Source: Pseudanabaena mucicola str. Chao 1806 (GTDB taxonomy: Bacteria; Cyanobacteriota; Cyanobacteriia; Pseudanabaenales; Pseudanabaenaceae). Taken from it: 64,000 nucleotides of DNA. A program made the translations under genes and the position numbers. Below are positions 31,016 through 41,632 of the stretch, one piece after another; the first letter of the stretch is position 1, and every line of letters starts with the position of its first letter. The stretch spans positions 2,201,001-2,265,000 of the forward strand of contig NZ_CP097329.1 in NCBI RefSeq assembly GCF_030323025.1. The letters are read 5' to 3'. The notes beneath the pieces were generated by a model. It was not told the DNA's origin, searched no databases, and saw nothing but the letters and a program-made list of their open reading frames with translations.

Positions 31016-32426
31016 GGACTTTACTTCCCGAAGATTGACTTGCTTTTTGATTTGGGTTTTGACTTGCTTGATGGATTTCCTGTGCTGTTAGCTTACCAGA
31101 AAGTACCGCCCCTTCCATACTGCCAAAAAAGGGTTGTGCTGTATAGCTACCTGACAAAAAGAAATTAGATATTGGTGTAGCTTGGCCGGGACGGAATTGT
31201 TCACGTCCGGGTGTGGCTGTATAAATTGATCGCGGAGTCTTGACGACATGGGACTTTAAGACTTTGGCAGGGCTAGGGAGATGCTGCGGAAATAGTTTGG
31301 CAAGTTCATTGAGGGTTGCTTCCACAATTTCGCTATTGGGGCGATCAATCCAATCGGCAGCAGGGGCAAAGACTAGCTCTAGCATCGATTTGTCAGGATC
31401 GGCATATTCCTTGCAGGAGTTGCTCATATCTGAGTAAACACTGAGCAGTGGCGATCGCGAAAATAGGGTGTGATCAATATCGGTAAGTTTGCGATCAAAC
31501 CAGATCTGCACACTGATTACGGGTACGCCTTCAAGGTTGTCTAGTTGTTGAAAATAGGGCAAGCCTTGCCAAGTGTCAGGAATATAGTTTTTAAATGCGT
31601 CCACTGACATGGCGGAAACGTAGGCATCGGCAAAGATTTCGCGACTAGGTGAGCCGTCTGTACCTTGGACGATTAACTTTTGGACATTGCCATCTTGATC
31701 GGTGACAATTTCCTTGAGCGCTACACCTGTATGCACTTCGCCGCCTCTTGCCACAACATAATCGACGATGGGCTGACAGAGACGTTCAGGAGGTGCGCCA
31801 TCTAGGTAGGCAATTTTTGAGCCATCTTTTTGTTGGAGAAATTTGTTGAGGGCGCGAAGGGGAATCGTTGCGGAAATGACATCGGGATCGATAAATTTGA
31901 GGGATTTACAAACGGCAATAAAAATATCGGTAGTAATGTCCTTACCGATGCCGCGCATTTCTAGCCATTCCTCGAAGGTGTATTTGTCCATCGAGACAAC
32001 GTAGTCATCGCCACGAATAATTGCAGGAATTAGCCCGATCGCAAACCGAATTTTCTGCTCCCATGTGAGCATATCGTTGTTACGCAGAATCGAGACAATG
32101 ATATTAAAGGGGGATGGGATATCGGGTACATCAAACCATGAAAGCACTCCTGGCTTTTCGGGTTGATTAAAAATTAAAGCATGGCGCTTCCATTGCAGGC
32201 GATCGAGGATATTTAGCTCACCCATCAGTTGCAACATATTGGGATAAGCGCCAAAAAAGTTATGTAATCCTGTTTCGATCCAATCGCCATCGGCATCTTT
32301 CCATGCCGCTACTAAGCCGCCGAGAACGTTACTGCGCTCTAGCAATATCGGCTGATGTCCTAAATCCACCAAATACTTGGCACAGGATAATCCTGCTAAC
32401 CCTCCTCCAGCGATCGCCACGCGCAT
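30963..32426 (-). CDS. crtP: 15-cis-phytoene desaturase
   Basis: Plant-type phytoene desaturase (Pds/CrtP), introduces two double bases to give zeta-carotene, using FAD and plastoquinone, on the membrane. 487 aa. The FAD-binding motif [19 protein letters not shown] is at the N-terminus and fixes the start. Other family blocks include [15 protein letters not shown] (about 52) and the C-terminal [20 protein letters not shown]. The last 40 residues are Gln/Ser-rich. First gene of crtP-crtB, as in many cyanobacteria. Confidence 0.96.
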
Positions 32427-32548
32427 ATTGCTCTAGTACCTGTACGTTTAATTTTTTTGATTACTTAAATCCATCTTACTTTGCAAAGCTTAATAATTTA
32501 CTAATTTTTTGTCTAAACTGGAGCAAATCTTTGATTAGGATTACTCTA

Positions 32549-32672
32549 AGTACAGGACAAAAAGCTTAAAACTCTCTCCCAGCAAAGCTTTTAGCTAAAA
32601 TACTTGCAATCTATACTGTGTAATGGTTTCAGCCGATTATGTCGTTTCATTTTTGATTTTTTGTCATGTACT
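32549..32672. repeat. MITE-like repeat, AGTACAGGACAAAAA ends
   Basis: Ends AGTACAGGACAAAAA and TTTTTTGTCATGTACT (one mismatch), 124 bp, no coding capacity. A half copy lies at about 12993. It sits 18 bp from the IS982 element; they are separate by their end sequences. Confidence 0.7.
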
Positions 32673-32690
32673 AAGAGGATTACTATATGA

Positions 32691-33687
32691 ACGCGATGTG
32701 CAACAAAGAATTAAGAATCAACCAAATCTTCAAACTGTAAAGGAAGAAGAGAATATCGGTTGAGCCAAAAACACATGGTATGAGCAAGGATTTTGCGATT
32801 AAGGCGACTAGAAAGATGCCAGATATCCCTAGCCCAAACTATATCAAGGTGAAAGCGTCCAACTAACTGACCAATGACAGTCTCAATCAAACGCCTTACC
32901 TTGACAATCAAACGTACCCACCAACGAGGACGAGAATCATGCATATTCGAGCGCAAAGCTGTTTGTAAATCAACGGCAAATGTCTGTAAATCTTGCTTGA
33001 GAGGTTGACTTAGATAGCCTTTGTCACCAATCAGGAAACCATGAATATTGGAGACTAAATCCCAGAGAGTTTCCCGTTCATCGCCATTAGCAGGAGTAAG
33101 CGCAAACTGGGTAATTACACCGCTACCACTAATGAGCACATGACCATGAAAGCCATAGTAATGCATATCCTTAGCAGCACAGTAACCATAGTCCGCCATA
33201 TCTGAAAAGCTACGACAACGGGATGCACGGCAGAGGTAACACAGTGGTATGGGTACACCATCAATCAGATGCACATCATCATCTAAAGCACCTAACTGTT
33301 CAGCTAGTTTTTGTTGGAGTATCGCTTTGTACTGCCACAGATTGGCGGCTTGTCGGACAAAGGTGGTACGACTTTTTAAGGCTGGAAACCATTCCCTCCA
33401 ATGCTTACGAAAATATTTCCAGATCCCTATGTCAGTCTCAATACCCTGATACTCAGCTACGATTTCCATTGTCATCACTTCGCTGTCACTTAGGGCTGGT
33501 GCAAATCCTTTGGCTCTGACCCGCTGCTCGGTTGTTATTTCTTTGAGTAGTTCATCGATTTTGCAAAATACCGCAATGATAAAATATTCTATAGAAAACA
33601 TAATGCTCACCGCTAATGGCGTTAGTTCTATTTTCTAACACTTTCCGCTGTGAGTTTTTTTGGCCTTTTCTTAGTTGCACATCGCGT
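32691..33687 (-). mobile_element. IS982 family insertion sequence (997 bp)
   Basis: Imperfect terminal inverted repeats ACGCGATGTGCAAC(A)AAGAA and complement ...TTCTTAGTTGCACATCGCGT, flanked by ATATGA on each side (32685-32690 and 33688-33693), a 6-bp target duplication. The transposase is intact, so the copy may be active. Confidence 0.92.
32711..33610 (-). CDS. IS982 family transposase
   Basis: 299 aa, full length for IS982. Family blocks: LSDSEVMTMEIVAEYQGIE (about 40), GIWKYFRKHWREWFPAL (about 62) and SRTTFVRQAANLWQYK. Acidic catalytic residues are probable in VHLIDGVPIPLC (about 115) and FLIGDKGYLSQPL (about 193), with a late Glu in VRRLIETVIGQL. No stop or shift. Confidence 0.92.
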   Translation of the reverse strand: MSIMFSIEYFIIAVFCKIDELLKEITTEQRVRAKGFAPALSDSEVMTMEIVAEYQGIETDIGIWKYFRKHWREWFPALKSRTTFVRQAANLWQYKAILQQKLAEQLGALDDDVHLIDGVPIPLCYLCRASRCRSFSDMADYGYCAAKDMHYYGFHGHVLISGSGVITQFALTPANGDERETLWDLVSNIHGFLIGDKGYLSQPLKQDLQTFAVDLQTALRSNMHDSRPRWWVRLIVKVRRLIETVIGQLVGRFHLDIVWARDIWHLSSRLNRKILAHTMCFWLNRYSLLPLQFEDLVDS

Positions 33688-33801
33688 ATATGATGTCTAG
33701 TAATCTCGTGTGGGAATAACGGTGAGAAGTATTTCTGGCAAGAGAACAGCAAGAGATTACATTGTGCCAGCACTTATCAAGTCCAAGCCGAGGATAAGCA
33801 A

Positions 33802-34257
33802 CTATTTATTTTCACGAAGCCCAAAGTAAAAACCAATCGCTGCACCCACCAAACTCGACTGAGCGGTTAATATCAGGGACACTAGATCTTTGGTTCCAGT
33901 TTGGTCTTTAATTTTTTCCTTGGTTGTATCTGAGGCTGAGTAGTAAAAAATCTTGTCTATCAAAATAATCAAAAATATGCCGACTATTGTTGCCACAAAA
34001 CCTCTAACTAGCCACTTTGCAAGTCTGGCTCTCGTTTCTTCTTGTATAAGAGGTAGATTTTCTAAAGTAAGAAGTTTGTCAGTGGGGAGTGATGGTATTT
34101 GAGATTTACTCTTTGTATCTGGGAGATCTAACTTATCTATGTCTACTGGCGCTATGTTCTGAGGCTGACCTGAAGAACTAGACTTACTTGTATTTATATT
34201 TTGCTCTTCAGGCAAACCTGCGGTAATGCTATCAATATTTTCACTCTGATCACTCAT
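33802..34257 (-). CDS. Hypothetical membrane protein
   Basis: 151 aa, unknown. The first 75 residues are polar and probably disordered (Ser, Gln, Pro, Asp rich); two hydrophobic helices follow (FVATIVGIFLIILIDKIFYY at about 91-110, and SLVGAAIGFYFGL near the C-terminus). Its start overlaps the stop of the upstream RHH-like gene in a TAATG arrangement, so the two are translated together. AT-rich accessory region. Confidence 0.7.
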   Translation of the reverse strand: MSDQSENIDSITAGLPEEQNINTSKSSSSGQPQNIAPVDIDKLDLPDTKSKSQIPSLPTDKLLTLENLPLIQEETRARLAKWLVRGFVATIVGIFLIILIDKIFYYSASDTTKEKIKDQTGTKDLVSLILTAQSSLVGAAIGFYFGLRENK

Positions 34258-34529
34258 TAGCTTGGCAAGGATTGTAATATCTTTTCAACATCTTTAGCTG
34301 CTGTCCAAGAAATTTCTTGCATAGAGCCACCTTGCTTTTTAATCAAGAATTTTGAATTTTCCTTTAGCTCACTCTGAATGTAGCTGTCTGTAGCGATCGC
34401 GTGACGCAAGGCAACTGAAAGTGGCACTCCCATAAGCTGAGCCAAATACTTAAGCTCTTGTAAAATATCTTCAGGAATAATGACAGATCTTTGGGGGATG
34501 CTGTTATTCACTATCTGTTCAACTGACAT
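34257..34529 (-). CDS. Small ribbon-helix-helix-like protein
   Basis: 90 aa. QRSVIIPEDILQELKYLAQL followed by MGVPLSVALRHAIATDSYIQ looks like a ribbon-helix-helix DNA-binding domain (beta strand, then two helices), as in antitoxins and plasmid repressors; the C-terminal KKQGGSMQEISW is consistent with a partner-binding tail. GGAG lies 8 bases before ATG 34529. Coupled by a TAATG overlap to the membrane protein at 33802-34257, which is not a known toxin. Confidence 0.65.
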   Translation of the reverse strand: MSVEQIVNNSIPQRSVIIPEDILQELKYLAQLMGVPLSVALRHAIATDSYIQSELKENSKFLIKKQGGSMQEISWTAAKDVEKILQSLPS

Positions 34530-34689
34530 GAGTCTATCTCCTTCAATCTATAGAATAGAATTGATGCTTATCTAGCGTAGCACATTTGCATTGAAATGTA
34601 ATGTAAAACTTTGTCTATTCACTAATTGTGCCAGAAGCAAAAACTATTGCAACCGGCACAAGATTGTAATTCAAAATTTGGAGTCAACA

Positions 34690-34887
34690 TCACTTAGAAT
34701 TACCTTCCTCAAATATGACAATGTGCGGCTTGGGCTGCTTGGGCTGCAAATTTTGAGTAGATAATGAATCTAAATCAAAAATTACATCTCTCAAGACTTC
34801 AATTATCAATTTGAATGGAGGCTCTCTGGAGTCCAGATCGGCGAAAATCATATCGATATGGATGGTGGAATTTTGCTCTGTATTCAT
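34690..34887 (-). CDS. Small hypothetical protein
   Basis: 65 aa, no family recognised; acidic and helical (FKLIIEVLRDVIFDLDSL). A good AGGTG lies 6 bases upstream of ATG 34887, which supports a real gene. Contained in the AT-rich accessory island. Confidence 0.5.
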   Translation of the reverse strand: MNTEQNSTIHIDMIFADLDSREPPFKLIIEVLRDVIFDLDSLSTQNLQPKQPKPHIVIFEEGNSK

Positions 34888-35171
34888 GATTGCACCTATG
34901 AATTCATTCGCTTCACTCTAGCATACAAATTAATGGCTGAAGTTGTTGACATATAAAGGTTTGAGACATTCACAAAATTCCTAAAAATACCGATTCTTGT
35001 TTATTTTATATTTAAAGTACTTGGTCTGTTTCTTACCGTAAATTGCCGCTTCTTTGACTACTAAAGGCAATTTTAGGAATTACCAATAACTACCTATTAA
35101 TTCTATTTACATTGAATAGTTATTTATGGAATATATGTTTATCACTAATTAACCTTTTGAGTGAGGCAATT

Positions 35172-35447
35172 ATGGCAAATATAACTTCGCCAGAACAAGC
35201 AAATTCGGTTAACTACTACAACCGAGATTCTCTGAGGGTGATGTATGAGGTTCAGAAAGAAGAATGTTCTAGAATTAAGCTAATTACAGCATCAGGACTG
35301 TCTCACGAGTTTTATAGACCTCTTTTTGGCAGCTTGATCTTAGAACACGATGGAGTAAGGACATTCATTCAAAAATTTGGCGCATGGGGAAAGCAGGCTA
35401 GTTTTACGACCTATGAGCCAGTATCAATGGAGATTGAATATGATTAG
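35172..35447 (+). CDS. Small hypothetical protein
   Basis: 91 aa from ATG 35172 (GTGAGG upstream); a longer frame from 35112 lacks a good site. Unknown family. It has mixed alpha/beta character with EFYRPLFGSLILEHDGVRTF and a C-terminal FTTYEPVSMEIEYD. It may be linked to the NYN gene 148 bp downstream. Confidence 0.6.
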   Translation: MANITSPEQANSVNYYNRDSLRVMYEVQKEECSRIKLITASGLSHEFYRPLFGSLILEHDGVRTFIQKFGAWGKQASFTTYEPVSMEIEYD

Positions 35448-35594
35448 GTATTTGGGGGAATTGATCTTCTTCCTTTGATAAGGCTAACTCCCCTGAATAT
35501 CTCAAAGTCTATCTTCAGTCTTAACTAAGTTTCATGTTTCAAGAGTGTATGACTAATTAATATCAAAATTATCTAGTACTAAGGATAAAACCTC

Positions 35595-36032
35595 ATGAAA
35601 TCAAGAGTTGCCCTTTATTTGGACTATGAGAATGTTTCAGATGTAGAACTAGTAGAGAATTGCATCGATTTTGCATTATCTCAGGGTGAGATTGTAATTC
35701 AGAATGCTTACACTAAGCAATGGAGAAATTCACGAACTGATGGTAACTTTCTTAGAAGGTTGGGATTTTCTCTTGTAAACGTTATACTGAATATCAAGAA
35801 TAGTGTTGATTGCAAGTGTATGTTTGATTGCATGGATGCACTACATGACAAATCATCACCTGACGTTTTTATTTTTGTAACTGGAGATGGTGACTATGCC
35901 CACCTGCTCAATATCTTGAAAGGGAATCATAAAAAAACCGTAGTATTTGCTAGGCGAGGATCGGGAAGTAGAAAACTTAGAAGAATTGCCCATGAGTTTT
36001 ACTTTCTGGATGAAGTACTTGCATTTGCTTAG
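35595..36032 (+). CDS. NYN domain (LabA/DUF88-like) protein
   Basis: 145 aa, a PIN-like RNase fold. First acidic motif ALYLDYENVS (about 7-16), middle SVDCKCMFDCMDALHDKSSP (about 75-94, the position of the usual K-x-VD...D), and third motif FVTGDGDYAHLL (about 98-109). The acidic residues for metal binding appear present. NYN proteins process RNA or act in stress and defence; the single domain without a LOTUS partner is common in bacteria. Two small genes precede it and a NACHT protein follows. Confidence 0.82.
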   Translation: MKSRVALYLDYENVSDVELVENCIDFALSQGEIVIQNAYTKQWRNSRTDGNFLRRLGFSLVNVILNIKNSVDCKCMFDCMDALHDKSSPDVFIFVTGDGDYAHLLNILKGNHKKTVVFARRGSGSRKLRRIAHEFYFLDEVLAFA

Positions 36033-36635
36033 CCATATAAAGCTAAAATAAAAATGGGTTTTATTAATTCTATATTTGACTAAAGTTTTGCCTAAATGGC
36101 ATCTAAAAAATATGTATGAAGAATAGTTTGTAGACTACTAGGGCGTGTCATCAATTAGGAAGACAGACTTGAAAGGGTTGAGTGGCTTGACTGAAAAAAT
36201 TGTAGTCTTTTTTGCCTATTTTTTTCTATCTTGCAACGACCGATTAGCCTTATCCCCCAGTTTAATTGATGACACGCCCTAGGACTTGTATCAAGATTTA
36301 ATGACATCAGAGGCAGGAGCTAAAATACCGATCATTGCCAATGAATTCCGTGTAATACCGATATTTGCAAGGATTTCTTTATTGCTTTATATATTCTCTA
36401 TGTAGTATATTAATGTCTCTTTGATAACTTAATGAGATGACCTAATCTTTCTGTAAATAGATAGATACTGCCTATTGAGGCTGCAGGTAATATAGACTAG
36501 TATCTGAATCTCGCTATATTTACAACTCAATAGATGTACTCCTTAATTCCTCAACAGCATGTAAGTGATACTTAGCCTAAATCTAAACCCGAAAACCCAC
36601 TCATTTAACTAACATAAAAAGTTTACAAGGAAAGT
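36033..36635. other. AT-rich intergenic region upstream of the NACHT gene
   Basis: 603 bp without a gene. It contains the GGGCGTGTCATCAATT MITE (36141-36279). The remaining ~350 bp before the NACHT start are AT-rich and should carry its promoter; no operator or hairpin was recognised. Confidence 0.5.
36141..36279. mobile_element. MITE with GGGCGTGTCATCAATT ends
   Basis: Ends GGGCGTGTCATCAATTA and TTAATTGATGACACGCCC, 139 bp, no coding capacity, with TA on both sides (36139-36140, 36280-36281). The ends resemble those of IS5 or IS630-type elements known as MITE sources in cyanobacteria; the parent is not in the window. Confidence 0.75.
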
Positions 36636-39248
36636 ATGTCTAGCGATTTGAATGAGAACAATAAAAAACTTAGTGGTCGTAGTAGCAAGATCGTTGACAC
36701 TACAGTATTTAGTTGGCTCAAAAGATCCTATGAAAATGACTTTCACGGCTCTCCTAGTAAACTAATAGAAAAGCTAGATAAAGCTTTTGAAAGAGAGATC
36801 AAGAAAGCTAAGGATGGCACTGGCTCTCTACTATCTGACAAGACTATTCGTAACTTTTTTATTGGGGATGCGCCACCAACGGCTTCGCTCAAGACTCTTA
36901 ATTATCTGTGTCATGTTTTGCTAGGATACAAAAATTATGGCGAAGCCCTTGAGAAAAAATCAGAAATACCAAGTCGTTCTGAGCTTGAAGACAATGAAAG
37001 TAAGAGATTAGATTTAAATAAAAATGAGCGAATTCTAGAACTAGAGAATGAATCTTGCCTAGAAGAAATCTTGCAACCATATCTACTCAAGACAAGAGAA
37101 AAATTAAACACTATGAAAGTGTTAGATATGAGAGAAAGGTTGCCATTAGACGACATCTATACTGAAACCTACTTCTGGAAAAACTCAACTTTTGTTACAG
37201 ATCGCATAGCAAGAATTTCTGATGCCAGTCTCCCAGTAAAGAATTTACGGATCAATGCTTTTGACAAAATCAGGGAAATTCAGCATCTTATGATTATGGG
37301 TGGTCCTGGTACTGGTAAAACTGCTTTTCTTAAAAAAGTTGGTTTGAGATACCTTGATAAAGATATTAGTAATCGAGATTTTGGCAAATGGTATGTGCCA
37401 ATATATGTGTCCGTCAAAATCTTTGGAGCGAAAATAGAATCTACAAACTTAAAATCAGTTCTTTTAGAAAGACTAGCTGATTTTATTCAGCCCAATGATT
37501 TTGAAAAAATGCTTCGTAAGGGACAGTTCTTCCTTTTATTAGATGCTTTGGACGAGTATAGCAATCTTAATGCTATGTGTAACAGAATAGAAGAGTTTTT
37601 AGAAATATATGATAGTAATAGGATTATTATTACCAATCGTCTAGGTATTCCTGACTGTAAGATTGCAGAATTCGATGAAGTTGAGATCGCTGAGTTTGAC
37701 AAAGAGCAAATATCTGTGTTTGCAAAAAAATGGTTCGATGCAACTAAAAAGAAAGAACTAGAATTCGATGCAGAAGCAGAAGAGATGTATGAAGAAGACT
37801 GGGAGCCATTGGAAATGGCTGAAAAATTTTTACATGAGTTAGCTAGGAATAATGCAATTGCTGGCGCTTGCATCAATCCTCTAATTCTTACTTACGTCTG
37901 TCTTAGATTTAAGGAAGAGTATGGACTCCCCAAAAATATTAGTGGTCTTTTAAAGGATATAGTATATATCCTATTAAAGAGATGGGATGCTACTCGTAGG
38001 ATTAAGCGAATTCCTAATGATGCTGATAGGTTGTCAGATGATCGCAAAATTGAACTATTCGGGAAGATTGCCTATAAGGGTTTTGCTAAAGAGCCATCTA
38101 GGCAGTTCCTTTGGTGTGAAGACGAGCTAATAGAAGAGATTAAAATATTTTTGAAGAATGTATCAACCATTAACAGTAGCGAAATTGATAGTAGTACCAA
38201 ACTAATGTTAGAAGTTATGATTCGAGATCATGGTTTGTTTATTCCTCAAGGTAAAATGCATTCTTTCCCTCATTTAACATACCAAGAATATTTTGTAGCT
38301 GATTACATCCAATCTCATCTAAGTAGTGATCTAAAGCTTTTATGTAAAACATTAGATGATTATCTATTTGATCGTCAATGGGAGCAAGTTTTTCTGATGC
38401 TAACAGAAAAACTTAATGATGCTGGTGATTTCTTCAAACATATGTTTTGGCATATCAACACTTCCATCAAAGGTAAAGATGAAATACAAGGAATGTTACA
38501 TTGGTTGAATGATTTTACCAGTTCGCTAAATGTTAATACTTCTGCTTGGCGTTCCTTCCTCCTCGCTACGGATCTGGAAACATCTATATACCTTAGACGG
38601 CATAGTATTGATATAAACTACAGCTATGCCCAAGAATTATCAGATCAAGCTGTATTGTTTAATAAAAAGAGAAATAAAATCACACCTAATCAGCCAAAAC
38701 TAGTAGTAGCTCTATATTTAGTTATCATCTACGACCTAGTTATAGATCTTTTAGGTGATTTAAAAGATTTAAAGGACAAGCCTAGGCTCAAGGCAGCATC
38801 AGAATTTGCTATGAAAGAATTGAGAATTGATACAGAGACAACTATCAACAAAGAACTAGATCTCGCCATTGCAAAAGCAAAACTAATTGATGATATGCCC
38901 ACTTTGATGGAAAAATTAAACGATTTGAGAGAATCTATGCCAAAAATTTCAGAATATTCAGGATATAGGGATTGGAAAGATTGGAATAACGAAGTCTTAG
39001 GTTTAATGAATGATTTCTTTAATATTGGGCATAAAGTTGTATTTACCCCAGATACTCAGAAAGCATTAGATGACTACATATATGCTAATAACTTGCTTAT
39101 GAAATGTATTCTGGGAGAGAACGTATCAGATTCTAATTTAAGGGAAAAGATTTTTGATCACATGCTTTTACCATTTGATTTAATTCCCCAAGAACAACTA
39201 CTACCATTTAGTCACACGAATAATCTTATTTTTGCTGAAATAAGCTAG
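36636..39248 (+). CDS. NACHT-domain NTPase, possible NLR-like defence protein
   Basis: 870 aa. About residues 15-105 form a helical N-terminal module (VFSWLKRSYENDFHGSPSKL). A linker at about 150-180 has VLDMRERLPLDDIYTETYFW, typical just before NACHT in bacterial proteins. The NACHT domain has Walker A GGPGTGKT (about 224-231), Walker B FLLLDALDEY (about 299-308) and IIITNRLG. A winged-helix part ends with FPHLTYQEYFVADYI (about 547-561). The C-terminal 300 residues are helical, without clear repeats. Bacterial NACHT proteins (bNACHT, Avs) sense phage proteins and trigger abortive infection; a role here is inference. Base composition is lower in GC than in core genes. Confidence 0.83.
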   Translation: MSSDLNENNKKLSGRSSKIVDTTVFSWLKRSYENDFHGSPSKLIEKLDKAFEREIKKAKDGTGSLLSDKTIRNFFIGDAPPTASLKTLNYLCHVLLGYKNYGEALEKKSEIPSRSELEDNESKRLDLNKNERILELENESCLEEILQPYLLKTREKLNTMKVLDMRERLPLDDIYTETYFWKNSTFVTDRIARISDASLPVKNLRINAFDKIREIQHLMIMGGPGTGKTAFLKKVGLRYLDKDISNRDFGKWYVPIYVSVKIFGAKIESTNLKSVLLERLADFIQPNDFEKMLRKGQFFLLLDALDEYSNLNAMCNRIEEFLEIYDSNRIIITNRLGIPDCKIAEFDEVEIAEFDKEQISVFAKKWFDATKKKELEFDAEAEEMYEEDWEPLEMAEKFLHELARNNAIAGACINPLILTYVCLRFKEEYGLPKNISGLLKDIVYILLKRWDATRRIKRIPNDADRLSDDRKIELFGKIAYKGFAKEPSRQFLWCEDELIEEIKIFLKNVSTINSSEIDSSTKLMLEVMIRDHGLFIPQGKMHSFPHLTYQEYFVADYIQSHLSSDLKLLCKTLDDYLFDRQWEQVFLMLTEKLNDAGDFFKHMFWHINTSIKGKDEIQGMLHWLNDFTSSLNVNTSAWRSFLLATDLETSIYLRRHSIDINYSYAQELSDQAVLFNKKRNKITPNQPKLVVALYLVIIYDLVIDLLGDLKDLKDKPRLKAASEFAMKELRIDTETTINKELDLAIAKAKLIDDMPTLMEKLNDLRESMPKISEYSGYRDWKDWNNEVLGLMNDFFNIGHKVVFTPDTQKALDDYIYANNLLMKCILGENVSDSNLREKIFDHMLLPFDLIPQEQLLPFSHTNNLIFAEIS

Positions 39249-39566
39249 TCTCATTATCACCTTGTTAGAACTTGAAAGCAGCAGATATAGATGCATATCT
39301 GCTGCTTTATGTTTTAAAAACCTGTTATCTTGAGATTTTGGCATAAAATCTTACAGAAACACACTACTGACACCAATTAAGTTTTCTAGTCACCTTAACT
39401 AAGAAACGTTACAAGCACATAAGAAATATTGATAATGTGTTTCATTATTGACCAAGTTGGCGACCCAACCCAAGATTAAGAATTAATAAAATTACCGTCT
39501 GGTACCGAACAATACCGCCAATATCCTTAAAATATAAATTAAAGATTTCATTTTGAGGTAATGGCT
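39249..39566. other. Intergenic region downstream of the NACHT gene
   Basis: 318 bp. A possible hairpin AAAGCAGCAGATAT / ATATCTGCTGCTTT (39277-39307) just after the NACHT stop could be its terminator. The rest is AT-rich without features. Confidence 0.55.
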
Positions 39567-39806
39567 ATGGTGAGTAAACTAACGCTTTTAAAAATCAGCC
39601 TCATACTACCAGCATTATTCTTTTTATTTGATGAACCTAAAACCGTCAACTCTTCTCATTCTAGTCTGACCGCTACTTTCTTAGACATGGTTCACTGTTA
39701 CGACTCTATTGCTACCAACCCCATTCCTATTGGGCAATCAACTGATCCAAATGATCCAGGCGGTTCTGGAAGAATTGATATAACTACTAGAGGGAGATCG
39801 AGCTAA
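39567..39806 (+). CDS. Small exported peptide-like protein of unknown function
   Basis: 79 aa from ATG 39567 (GAGGTA 8 bases upstream; ATG 39561 would be too close). Signal peptide-like hydrophobic stretch (ISLILPALFFLF). The C-terminus, STDPNDPGGSGRIDITTRGR, is polar and glycine-rich. No family recognised. Confidence 0.5.
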   Translation: MVSKLTLLKISLILPALFFLFDEPKTVNSSHSSLTATFLDMVHCYDSIATNPIPIGQSTDPNDPGGSGRIDITTRGRSS

Positions 39807-39852
39807 ATCTGTTTGAAACATTGCTTTATTCGCTTTGTGTGGAGATACAACT

Positions 39853-40608
39853 ATGGTCATTATTTCTGGTCAGCGTTTACCAACTGCCGAAGAACTGCCT
39901 CACAGTGACGATACCCCCGTGGATAACGAGCTTCAAAATCATATTCCCAATCTTTTATTAAATATTCTGCTCAGTATTTGGGGCGATCGCCAAGATTGGT
40001 TTTTTGGTGTGGATATGGCAGTGTATTACGACCCTAACAAGCCGCAGATCGTCCCCGATGGCTTTTTGGCAATGGGTGTACCTCGAAATACAGGCGATCG
40101 CGGTCGGCTGAGTTATTTAGTATGGCAAGAACAATATGTCTTACCAAAATTGGTACTAGAAGTTGTCTCCGAAAAATACAATGGCGAATATGAGAAAAAG
40201 CTAGAGGACTATCAAAGTATCGGGGTGCTTTACTATGTGATTTACAACCCCTTAGCGGGAAAGCAATCAAGATATAAGCAACGCCAACCTTTAGAGGTTT
40301 ATCAACTGGTCAATCAAAAATATCAGCTATTAATAGGCAATCCTGTATGGCTGCCTGAGATTGGTTTAGCGCTCGGTTATGAAAACGCAGATCATGCCAA
40401 CTGGGAACGGGAATGGTTATTTTGGTATGACGAAACAGGTCAAAGGTATTTAACCGATCGCGAGAAGATCGCGGCGGCGGAATCAACAATTTTGGCAATG
40501 TGGGAAGCAAATGAGCAGGAACGTCAAGCTAAAGAGCAAGAACGTCAATCTAAGGAAAAATTAGAAAATTATCTCAGGTCAATGGGGATTAACCCTGATG
40601 ACATTTGA
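39853..40608 (+). CDS. Uma2 family (DUF820) protein with charged tail
   Basis: 251 aa from ATG 39853 (GGAG upstream). PD-(D/E)XK-like core: IVPDGFLAMGVPR (about 60), LPKLVLEVVSEKYNGEYEKK (about 97-116) and LEDYQSIGVLYYVIYNP. The C-terminus has a helical repeat of (Q)ERQ(A/S)KEQ and ends YLRSMGINPDDI, common in larger Uma2 proteins. A related but decayed tail lies at 12848-12965. Confidence 0.87.
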   Translation: MVIISGQRLPTAEELPHSDDTPVDNELQNHIPNLLLNILLSIWGDRQDWFFGVDMAVYYDPNKPQIVPDGFLAMGVPRNTGDRGRLSYLVWQEQYVLPKLVLEVVSEKYNGEYEKKLEDYQSIGVLYYVIYNPLAGKQSRYKQRQPLEVYQLVNQKYQLLIGNPVWLPEIGLALGYENADHANWEREWLFWYDETGQRYLTDREKIAAAESTILAMWEANEQERQAKEQERQSKEKLENYLRSMGINPDDI

Positions 40609-40717
40609 TGATAGAGGTGCTTCGCACCTCTATCATCAACGGCATATATATTGAGGGCGCAAACCACTGTAAACTACAGAAATTAGATTTACAGTCTTTT
40701 AGTCATTTTTAGCCAAT

Positions 40718-41632
40718 ATGGTAAAAAGCCTCGTTGTTCCCCCTGAGCTATCTCCCAAGACATCTCGCAAGCTATGGATGGCGGCGATTAAACTACCAAT
40801 GTATAGTGTGGCAATTGTACCGATCGCCACGGGTACAGCGATCGCCTATCGCGATACTGGGGCAATTAACTGGGGCATCTTTTTCACCTTTTTGGTCTCT
40901 GCAATTTTGATTTTAGTTTGGGAAAATCTCTGTAATGACGTATTTGATGCGGAGACAGGGATTGATGTCAATAAGGCGCATTCGGTGGTCAATCTCACGG
41001 GCAGGAAAAATGTGATCTTTGCGATCGCCAATATTTGTTTATTGCTGGGTATCGGTGGCGTATTCGCGATTTCATGGCTACAGCAGGATTTGGTGGTGGT
41101 CGGTGCGATCGCCATTTGTTGTTTTCTGGGCTATATCTACCAAGGTCCTCCCTTTCGCTTGGGATATCAAGGCTTAGGTGAAATTTTATGCTTTTTCGCC
41201 TTTGGACCTCTAGGAGTTTCCGCCGCCTATTACAGTCAAGCCAAGTCTTGGTCAGTTGGCTCTCTTGCTGCCGCGATCATTGTTGGGATTATCACTAGCT
41301 TGATTTTGTTCTGTTCCCATTTCAATCAAGTTGCCGATGATCTAGCAGCAGGCAAAAAATCCCCTGTAGTGAGACTAGGAACTAAGCGATCGGCTCAGCT
41401 TTTGCCTTGGCTCTGTGGGGTGATTTATGCAATTACGATCATCGCAATCGCTTGTAACTTTTTCCCAATCTGGACAGCGATCGTATTGGTCAGCTTACCG
41501 ATCGCTTGGAATTTATGTACCTTCATTGGCGAGAATCACGATCAGGCGGATCTGTTACTCAATTGTCGATTTATTGCAGTGGCTTTACATTTTGTCGTTG
41601 GCTCAGGGCTGAGTATTAGCTTGATTTTCTAA
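40718..41632 (+). CDS. menA: 2-carboxy-1,4-naphthoquinone phytyltransferase
   Basis: UbiA-family membrane prenyltransferase that attaches the phytyl chain in phylloquinone (photosystem I A1) synthesis. 304 aa, eight or nine helices. The substrate-binding aspartate motif is NDVFDAETGIDVNKAHSVVN (about 70-90), and the second one is HFNQVADDLAAGKKSPVVRL (about 200). The N-terminal KLPMYSVAIVPIATGTAIAY is typical of MenA. Alone on this strand, convergent with the P-type ATPase gene. Confidence 0.94.
   Translation: MVKSLVVPPELSPKTSRKLWMAAIKLPMYSVAIVPIATGTAIAYRDTGAINWGIFFTFLVSAILILVWENLCNDVFDAETGIDVNKAHSVVNLTGRKNVIFAIANICLLLGIGGVFAISWLQQDLVVVGAIAICCFLGYIYQGPPFRLGYQGLGEILCFFAFGPLGVSAAYYSQAKSWSVGSLAAAIIVGIITSLILFCSHFNQVADDLAAGKKSPVVRLGTKRSAQLLPWLCGVIYAITIIAIACNFFPIWTAIVLVSLPIAWNLCTFIGENHDQADLLLNCRFIAVALHFVVGSGLSISLIF

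Follow-up and report, generated by a model that had tools for sequence, protein, structure and literature searches.

How a bacterial NACHT protein without a recognisable effector acts after sensing infection is a puzzle, and it is raised by an 870-aa protein encoded in the window analysed here, a 64,000-nucleotide stretch of the 4.53 Mb, single-contig genome of Pseudanabaena mucicola str. Chao 1806. The gene lies in an island in which, read from the left, an IS982 copy, a two-TM protein gene (−), an RHH gene (−), a gene for a 111-aa protein (+), a NYN gene (+), a MITE-like element and the NACHT gene (+) follow one another. Genomes and loci used for comparison carry G and L labels, and the features of the region are as follows.

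32531..39837, no strand: strain-specific island, 7307 bp, in place of 139 bp of ancestral intergenic DNA (blastn against G058, G002, G021, G022 and others)
32691..33687, minus: IS982 copy that carries the 6-bp direct repeat ATATGA at both ends and has terminal inverted repeats of 20 bp, which are 95% complementary
32711–33610: IS982 transposase (NF033520, 241 bits)
33802..34257, minus: small two-TM protein, one of an RHH-linked membrane protein family, predicted TM helices at residues 82–100 and 125–143
34257..34529, minus: RHH protein, encoded ahead of the TM gene in the RHH-TM pair (RHH_3 match at E 0.0025, under the profile's cut-off)
35112–35447, plus: 111-aa hypothetical protein
35595..36032, plus: NYN-domain protein, putative RNase (PF01936, E 6.9e-21)
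36138..36282, no strand: MITE-like element, 145 bp, with 20-bp perfect terminal inverted repeats
36636..39248, plus: predicted NACHT STAND ATPase, 870 aa (HTH-like domain at ~17–107, NACHT at ~205–370 and following, NCH2 at 757–846)
39275..39308, plus: terminator-like hairpin with a 14-bp stem, directly 3' of the NACHT gene
39561..39806, plus: 81-aa ORF with one hydrophobic stretch
39835–40608: Uma2 gene, in essence outside the island

The stretch 32531–39837 is a strain-specific insertion, AT-rich and poor in HIP1 sites. The same-species genome G058 has 139 bp at this site, between flanks 98.2–99.6% identical to those of the window, and the insertion is absent from all 23 other genomes of the genus that can be judged. 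The left flanking gene, which we take to be phytoene-desaturase-like (pds-like), and the UbiA gene lie 155–1138 bp apart on one contig in 23 of the 25 other genus genomes (the gap in G006 was judged from a partial copy of the left flanking gene at a contig end), and on different contigs in the remaining two, G001 and G007. The four largest gaps, of 1113–1138 bp, belong to G021, G058, G002 and G022, and all contain Uma2. Because these four closest genomes retain the coding part of Uma2 next to UbiA, and the insertion replaced only its 5' leader, the gene is essentially outside the island. Apart from mobile-element fragments and short stretches, no island DNA was found elsewhere in the four. GC content is 36.2% within the island (a fraction of 0.352 without the IS982 copy) against 42.5% in the rest of the window. 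A single HIP1 site was counted where 9.54 were expected (window total 75; Poisson P(≤1) 7.6e-4), and the longest HIP1-free gap of the whole window runs from 34393 to 39983. A preliminary description of the DNA had spoken of an AT-rich accessory island with a change in composition and fewer HIP1 octamers than its flanks, all of which is borne out, and domain searches recovered the genes it listed (IS982, two-TM, RHH-like, NYN, the 870-aa NACHT protein and Uma2). Its placing of the island between IS982 and Uma2 needs correction, however, as the edges at 32531 and 39837 put IS982 inside and Uma2 outside. No Rfam match was found in 32000–41000.

The IS982 copy at the left end is a later insertion within island-like DNA. 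The 30 bp to its right, 33688–33717 (ATATGATGTCTAGTAATCTCGTGTGG), closely resemble the Uma2 leader of G058, G002, G021 and G022 (TATGATGTTTAGTAATCTCATGTGG), so IS982 split a second Uma2-leader-like sequence at the island's left end. The MITE-like element has 88–90% copies in G058 (C107) and G021 (C7), and only partial matches elsewhere in its own genome. Hairpins of the terminator-like type were found at 4 sites, compared with 3.2 expected in shuffled sequences. Comparison by eye shows the stretch LEHDGVRT both in the 111-aa protein and in one of 112 aa from G011 (L242:6849–7187), which is also encoded near an RHH gene. No relatives of the 81-aa peptide were found in the 25 other genus genomes. 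A conserved secreted peptide following the NACHT gene (39561–39806, equated with 6047–6280 of L083) was considered and rejected, since BLASTP gave no alignment and the genus search no relative.

Sequence matches identify the 870-aa protein as a STAND ATPase of the NACHT-NCH2 type. NCH2 (PF22727) was matched at the C-terminus over the whole profile, 1–96 (E 1.1e-13; 51.6 bits, cut-off 27), and the Pfam NACHT profile was matched at E 1.3e-5 with 25.5 bits, 1.2 bits under its cut-off of 26.7. Both profiles were matched by 15 out of 15 aligned members of the subfamily at E≤0.01, and the P-loop GGPGTGKT, the DxxDE stretch LLLDALDE and the sensor residues are invariant in all 15. The AlphaFold model (pLDDT 77, pTM 0.66) has the NLR-like order, NACHT and then helical domains. 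Over residues ~137–846 it resembles NLRC4 (Z 23.0; 450 residues, 6.5 Å), NLRP3 (Z 22.4) and NOD2 (Z 21.1), and a profile search of PDB sequences found NLRP3 and NLRC4. The NACHT module and C-terminal helical region noted earlier as resembling anti-phage NLR relatives are upheld by the NCH2 match and by the NLR-like model. The search of defence models suggested there lends no support: PADLOC gave no whole-family match to the protein and P-loop-level matches only (mad8, E 0.0081; GajB, E 0.048). The nearest full-length relatives are 33–35% identical, and residues 1–150 have no meaningful Pfam, NCBIfam or PADLOC domain that would represent an enzymatic effector.

Residues 17–107 make up a domain that Pfam does not name, modelled with a pLDDT of 89 when folded alone. 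The best VIA-align match is TP901-1 CI (Z 6.3), and the top 30 rows are, judging from their titles, HTH/lambda-repressor-type proteins; Foldseek returned nothing below E 1 (best E 1.1). On this weak evidence, the closest counterpart of the first ~100 residues would be the five-helix HTH fold of lambda-repressor/XRE-like proteins. When a profile of these residues was run against 291 genomes of the class, 6 matched (G000, G054, G133, G177, G213 and G258), four of them being rows of the profile itself and the match in G133 being weak, and in every one of the six the domain is fused to NACHT. The NACHT profile, by contrast, matched 168 of the 291 genomes at E≤1e-60. The window protein shares NACHT and NCH2 with other cyanobacterial NCH2-NACHT proteins (PF22727), but differs from them in an N-terminal domain that was found in only these six genomes of the sample.

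The protein can be assigned to a small, mostly cyanobacterial subfamily, for which 21 loci were compared: the window, G006 (L083), G054 (L084), L144–L155, L162, L164, L170 (G258), L171 (G213), L226 (G177) and L245, on a Nostoc plasmid. The weak N-terminal match in G133 (L239) was excluded. The G213 gene is the same gene as one on a Leptolyngbya boryana plasmid. Contig profile searches with the single NACHT protein found no relative, and with the alignment they found 27 loci. No NACHT match was found among 50,697 phage records; viral contigs gave 4 distant matches to part of the protein only, and 2 RHH genes, neither with a TM partner. Two NACHT loci are broken, L164 and L226, the latter by an ISL3 transposase. 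Three Nostocales groups (L148/L151/L155, L145/L146/L147 and L150/L153/L154) have conserved neighbourhoods, unlike a fast-moving defence gene. It had been suggested that syntenic conservation in most relatives would point to a housekeeping role; there is none at the window locus, although the subfamily partly exhibits it in these Nostocales groups. In the last group, a small protein with a single hydrophobic segment, related among the three loci, is encoded just upstream of NACHT (L150:5413–5631, L153:4030–4236 and L154:5296–5559).

The tightest partner of the NACHT subfamily is a Cys/His microprotein of ~60 aa, present at 19 of the 21 loci. The strict motif CxHxxGxxWxxGCC was found at 16 loci and nowhere else among the loci then examined, and a variant, CHRKLGxxWxDGCC, at three more (L164, L170 and L226). 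L170 and L226 scored E 0.26 and 0.063 with a profile of the other microproteins and were accepted on this variant motif. The gene follows NACHT on the same strand; the exceptions are L150, L153 and L154, which have it upstream. It was not found in the window or L083, the two Pseudanabaena loci. Strong matches in the 291 genomes are confined to four loci, all of them rows of the profile used (A10, with rows from G054, G213, G177 and G258), which therefore match by construction; the next-best match reaches 25 bits and crosses stop codons. The microprotein has no Pfam or PADLOC match.

A second linkage involves the RHH-TM pair, which is divergent to NACHT at 4 of the 21 loci (the window, G006, G258 and G177), the pair in G006 having the same order as in the window. 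RHH-NACHT distances at these four cassette loci are 899, 1667, 1802 and 2107 bp. A profile made only of the window and G006 RHH rows matched 10 further genomes, one of which, G258, has its RHH gene 1.8 kb from a subfamily NACHT gene. Profile A5, which had no G177 row, gave 47 RHH matches in 43 of the 291 genomes, including G177, where the gene is again divergent and 1.7 kb away. About 0.0006 RHH-NACHT pairs would be expected by chance among 23 strong RHH matches in 291 genomes, whereas 3 were seen (2 without the window); the estimate assumes random places and is optimistic, as G258 and G177 represent one family and are not fully independent. Cassettes of the window and G006 are at different places, and those of L170 and L226 have their proteins in common but not their flanks. 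In the NACHT tree as in the RHH-TM tree, G258 and G177 group together with full support; the pairing of the window with G006 is weak for RHH-TM (90/78), and the NACHT tree, with long branches, does not resolve it. The remaining 17 loci lack RHH-TM, L149 being judged for 1.3 kb upstream only; no pair was found in L244, or in L245 and the stretch upstream of it. Nine NACHT loci without the N-terminal domain (L181–L189) gave no RHH match at E≤0.01.

RHH-TM is, as far as the family matches go, a general cyanobacterial unit that has been combined with NACHT, and its toxin character is only putative. The RHH loci retrieved numbered 29, namely G006 and 28 of the 47 sample matches. A TM gene adjoins the RHH gene on the same strand in 24 of them, only 4 of which have NACHT; the five without a TM gene comprise one at a contig end and the four weakest matches. 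Hydropathy analysis of 14 TM proteins gave at least one strong hydrophobic segment in all 14 and two or more in 13. No toxin family match was found for the TM protein, and a PHROG ‘hemolysin’ match (E 4.6e-5) spans one TM helix only. In G023, the RHH and TM parts are fused into one 223-aa frame (L238:7475–8146). At three Pseudanabaena loci (L229, L233 and L238), a kinase-like gene comes immediately after the pair, with a Pkinase domain of the Ser/Thr type confirmed in L229 only; the next gene in L229 and L233 starts, we assume, like RNase PH. Given this kinase neighbour and the predominance of RHH-TM pairs without NACHT, the membrane protein does not have to act as a killer.

NYN, which the preliminary description had named alongside NACHT, fares poorly as a general partner: no relative was detectable at the three other cassette loci (L083, L170 and L226). 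It is near only 2 of the 21 NACHT loci, the window and L162, whose NYN gene is of another type and is 1.1 kb away from NACHT. The window NYN has one further, weak match in the genus (G020; 26 genomes), and L174 and L175, RHH-TM loci closely related to each other, also have NYN relatives nearby. It is probably unrelated, independent cargo.

Several known systems invite comparison. The window protein shares with bNACHT proteins the tripartite STAND ATPase architecture, a central NACHT, a C-terminal helical sensor region and an accessory distribution, as described in PMC12169576. There, bNACHT25 and bNACHT32 belong to clade 6, with NCH1, and bNACHT02 and bNACHT12 to clade 14, with SNaCT; the window protein has NCH2 instead. 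Its N-terminus is HTH-like in place of a PD-(D/E)XK nuclease, and small genes are linked to it here. It resembles animal NLRs (NLRC4, NLRP3 and NOD2) in the modelled NACHT and following helical domains, but is 11–18% identical to them, has no LRR and gave no CARD/PYD-type match at its N-terminus. The RHH-TM pair recalls type II toxin-antitoxin systems with RHH antitoxins in that a short RHH gene comes first and the second overlaps it or is close behind; it differs in that no known toxin family matches the product of the second gene, a two-TM protein of putative toxicity that is fused to the RHH part in G023.

The presence in an island of a NACHT gene whose product has the build of human inflammasome sensors, beside RHH and membrane-protein genes, suggests an infection-triggered switch whose output comes from separate genes. 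In the bNACHT proteins that have been studied, sensing falls to the C-terminus, oligomerisation to NACHT and the effector role to the N-terminus, and E. coli bNACHT02 and bNACHT12 are protective without a readily discernible effector domain (PMC12169576). Conflict systems with effectors supplied by adjacent standalone genes are reported by Kaur et al. (PMC7159879). These two precedents lead us to propose a switch with a separately encoded output, the latter because no enzymatic effector is recognisable in the NACHT protein. NCH2 and the preceding helices would sense an infection cue, and ATP binding would make the protein oligomerise, as it does other members of the NACHT class. The output would then come from proteins encoded separately, with the small membrane protein as the likeliest candidate, acting by membrane damage or signalling. 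The membrane protein would be controlled by the RHH protein and perhaps also by the HTH-like domain, and in most relatives the Cys/His microprotein may take part instead or as well.

We tentatively favour the reading that the island carries an infection switch, NLR-like and from a subfamily of its own, presumably defensive, with its output separately encoded and perhaps residing in the membrane protein; we put this a little short of an even chance. In its favour, the island is strain-specific and the RHH-TM order is kept in four genomes at differing places with different flanks. The 17 loci without RHH-TM tell against it, as does the PADLOC search, in which no family was matched above the P-loop level, and a simple toxin or defence-island story has to contend with RHH-TM occurring widely without NACHT and with the conserved Nostocales neighbourhoods. 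Those same 17 loci, the unstable link to NYN and the protection given by bNACHT02 and bNACHT12 (PMC12169576) would suit a self-contained anti-phage bNACHT, in which NACHT alone, through its helical N-terminus or an unrecognised effector, stops infection and RHH-TM, NYN and the rest are passengers. Yet the RHH-TM linkage recurs in the same divergent order in two lineages and at different places, and the microprotein accompanies 19 of 21 loci, which argues for partner genes and leaves the self-contained version unlikely.

Slightly less probable again is a ligand-responsive STAND transcription regulator, whose HTH-like domain would bind DNA and switch the membrane-protein operon in stress or development. 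The modelled N-terminus, the divergent neighbouring operon, the kinase gene beside RHH-TM elsewhere and the conserved Nostocales neighbourhoods are consistent with it, but the evidence for the HTH fold is weak (Z 6.3, Foldseek E > 1) and the distribution is strain-specific and mobile, here and on two plasmids. Moreover, the bacterial NACHT-type STAND proteins of known function are defensive according to PMC12169576. Finally, the genes could be neutral or decaying cargo that arrived by recombination and has no present function in the strain, as the IS982 and MITE-like elements within the island and the broken copies in G177 (ISL3 transposase) and L164 might indicate; with all window coding frames intact and the ATPase motifs complete, we consider this improbable.

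A broader form of the favoured separate-output switch is possible, although we hold it with somewhat more reserve: HTH-NACHT-NCH2 proteins may be a new kind of STAND immune switch without an effector of their own, acting via a dedicated partner, which would be the microprotein in most hosts and, also or instead, the RHH/two-TM operon in others. A literature search of limited scope found no paper on NACHT-partner linkage, though one may exist. Through gene linkage, the subfamily gives two testable candidate partners, the Cys/His microprotein and the RHH/two-TM operon. If either is the output, NLR-like switches can act by way of small proteins encoded apart from them, and this in cyanobacteria that are open to genetic work.
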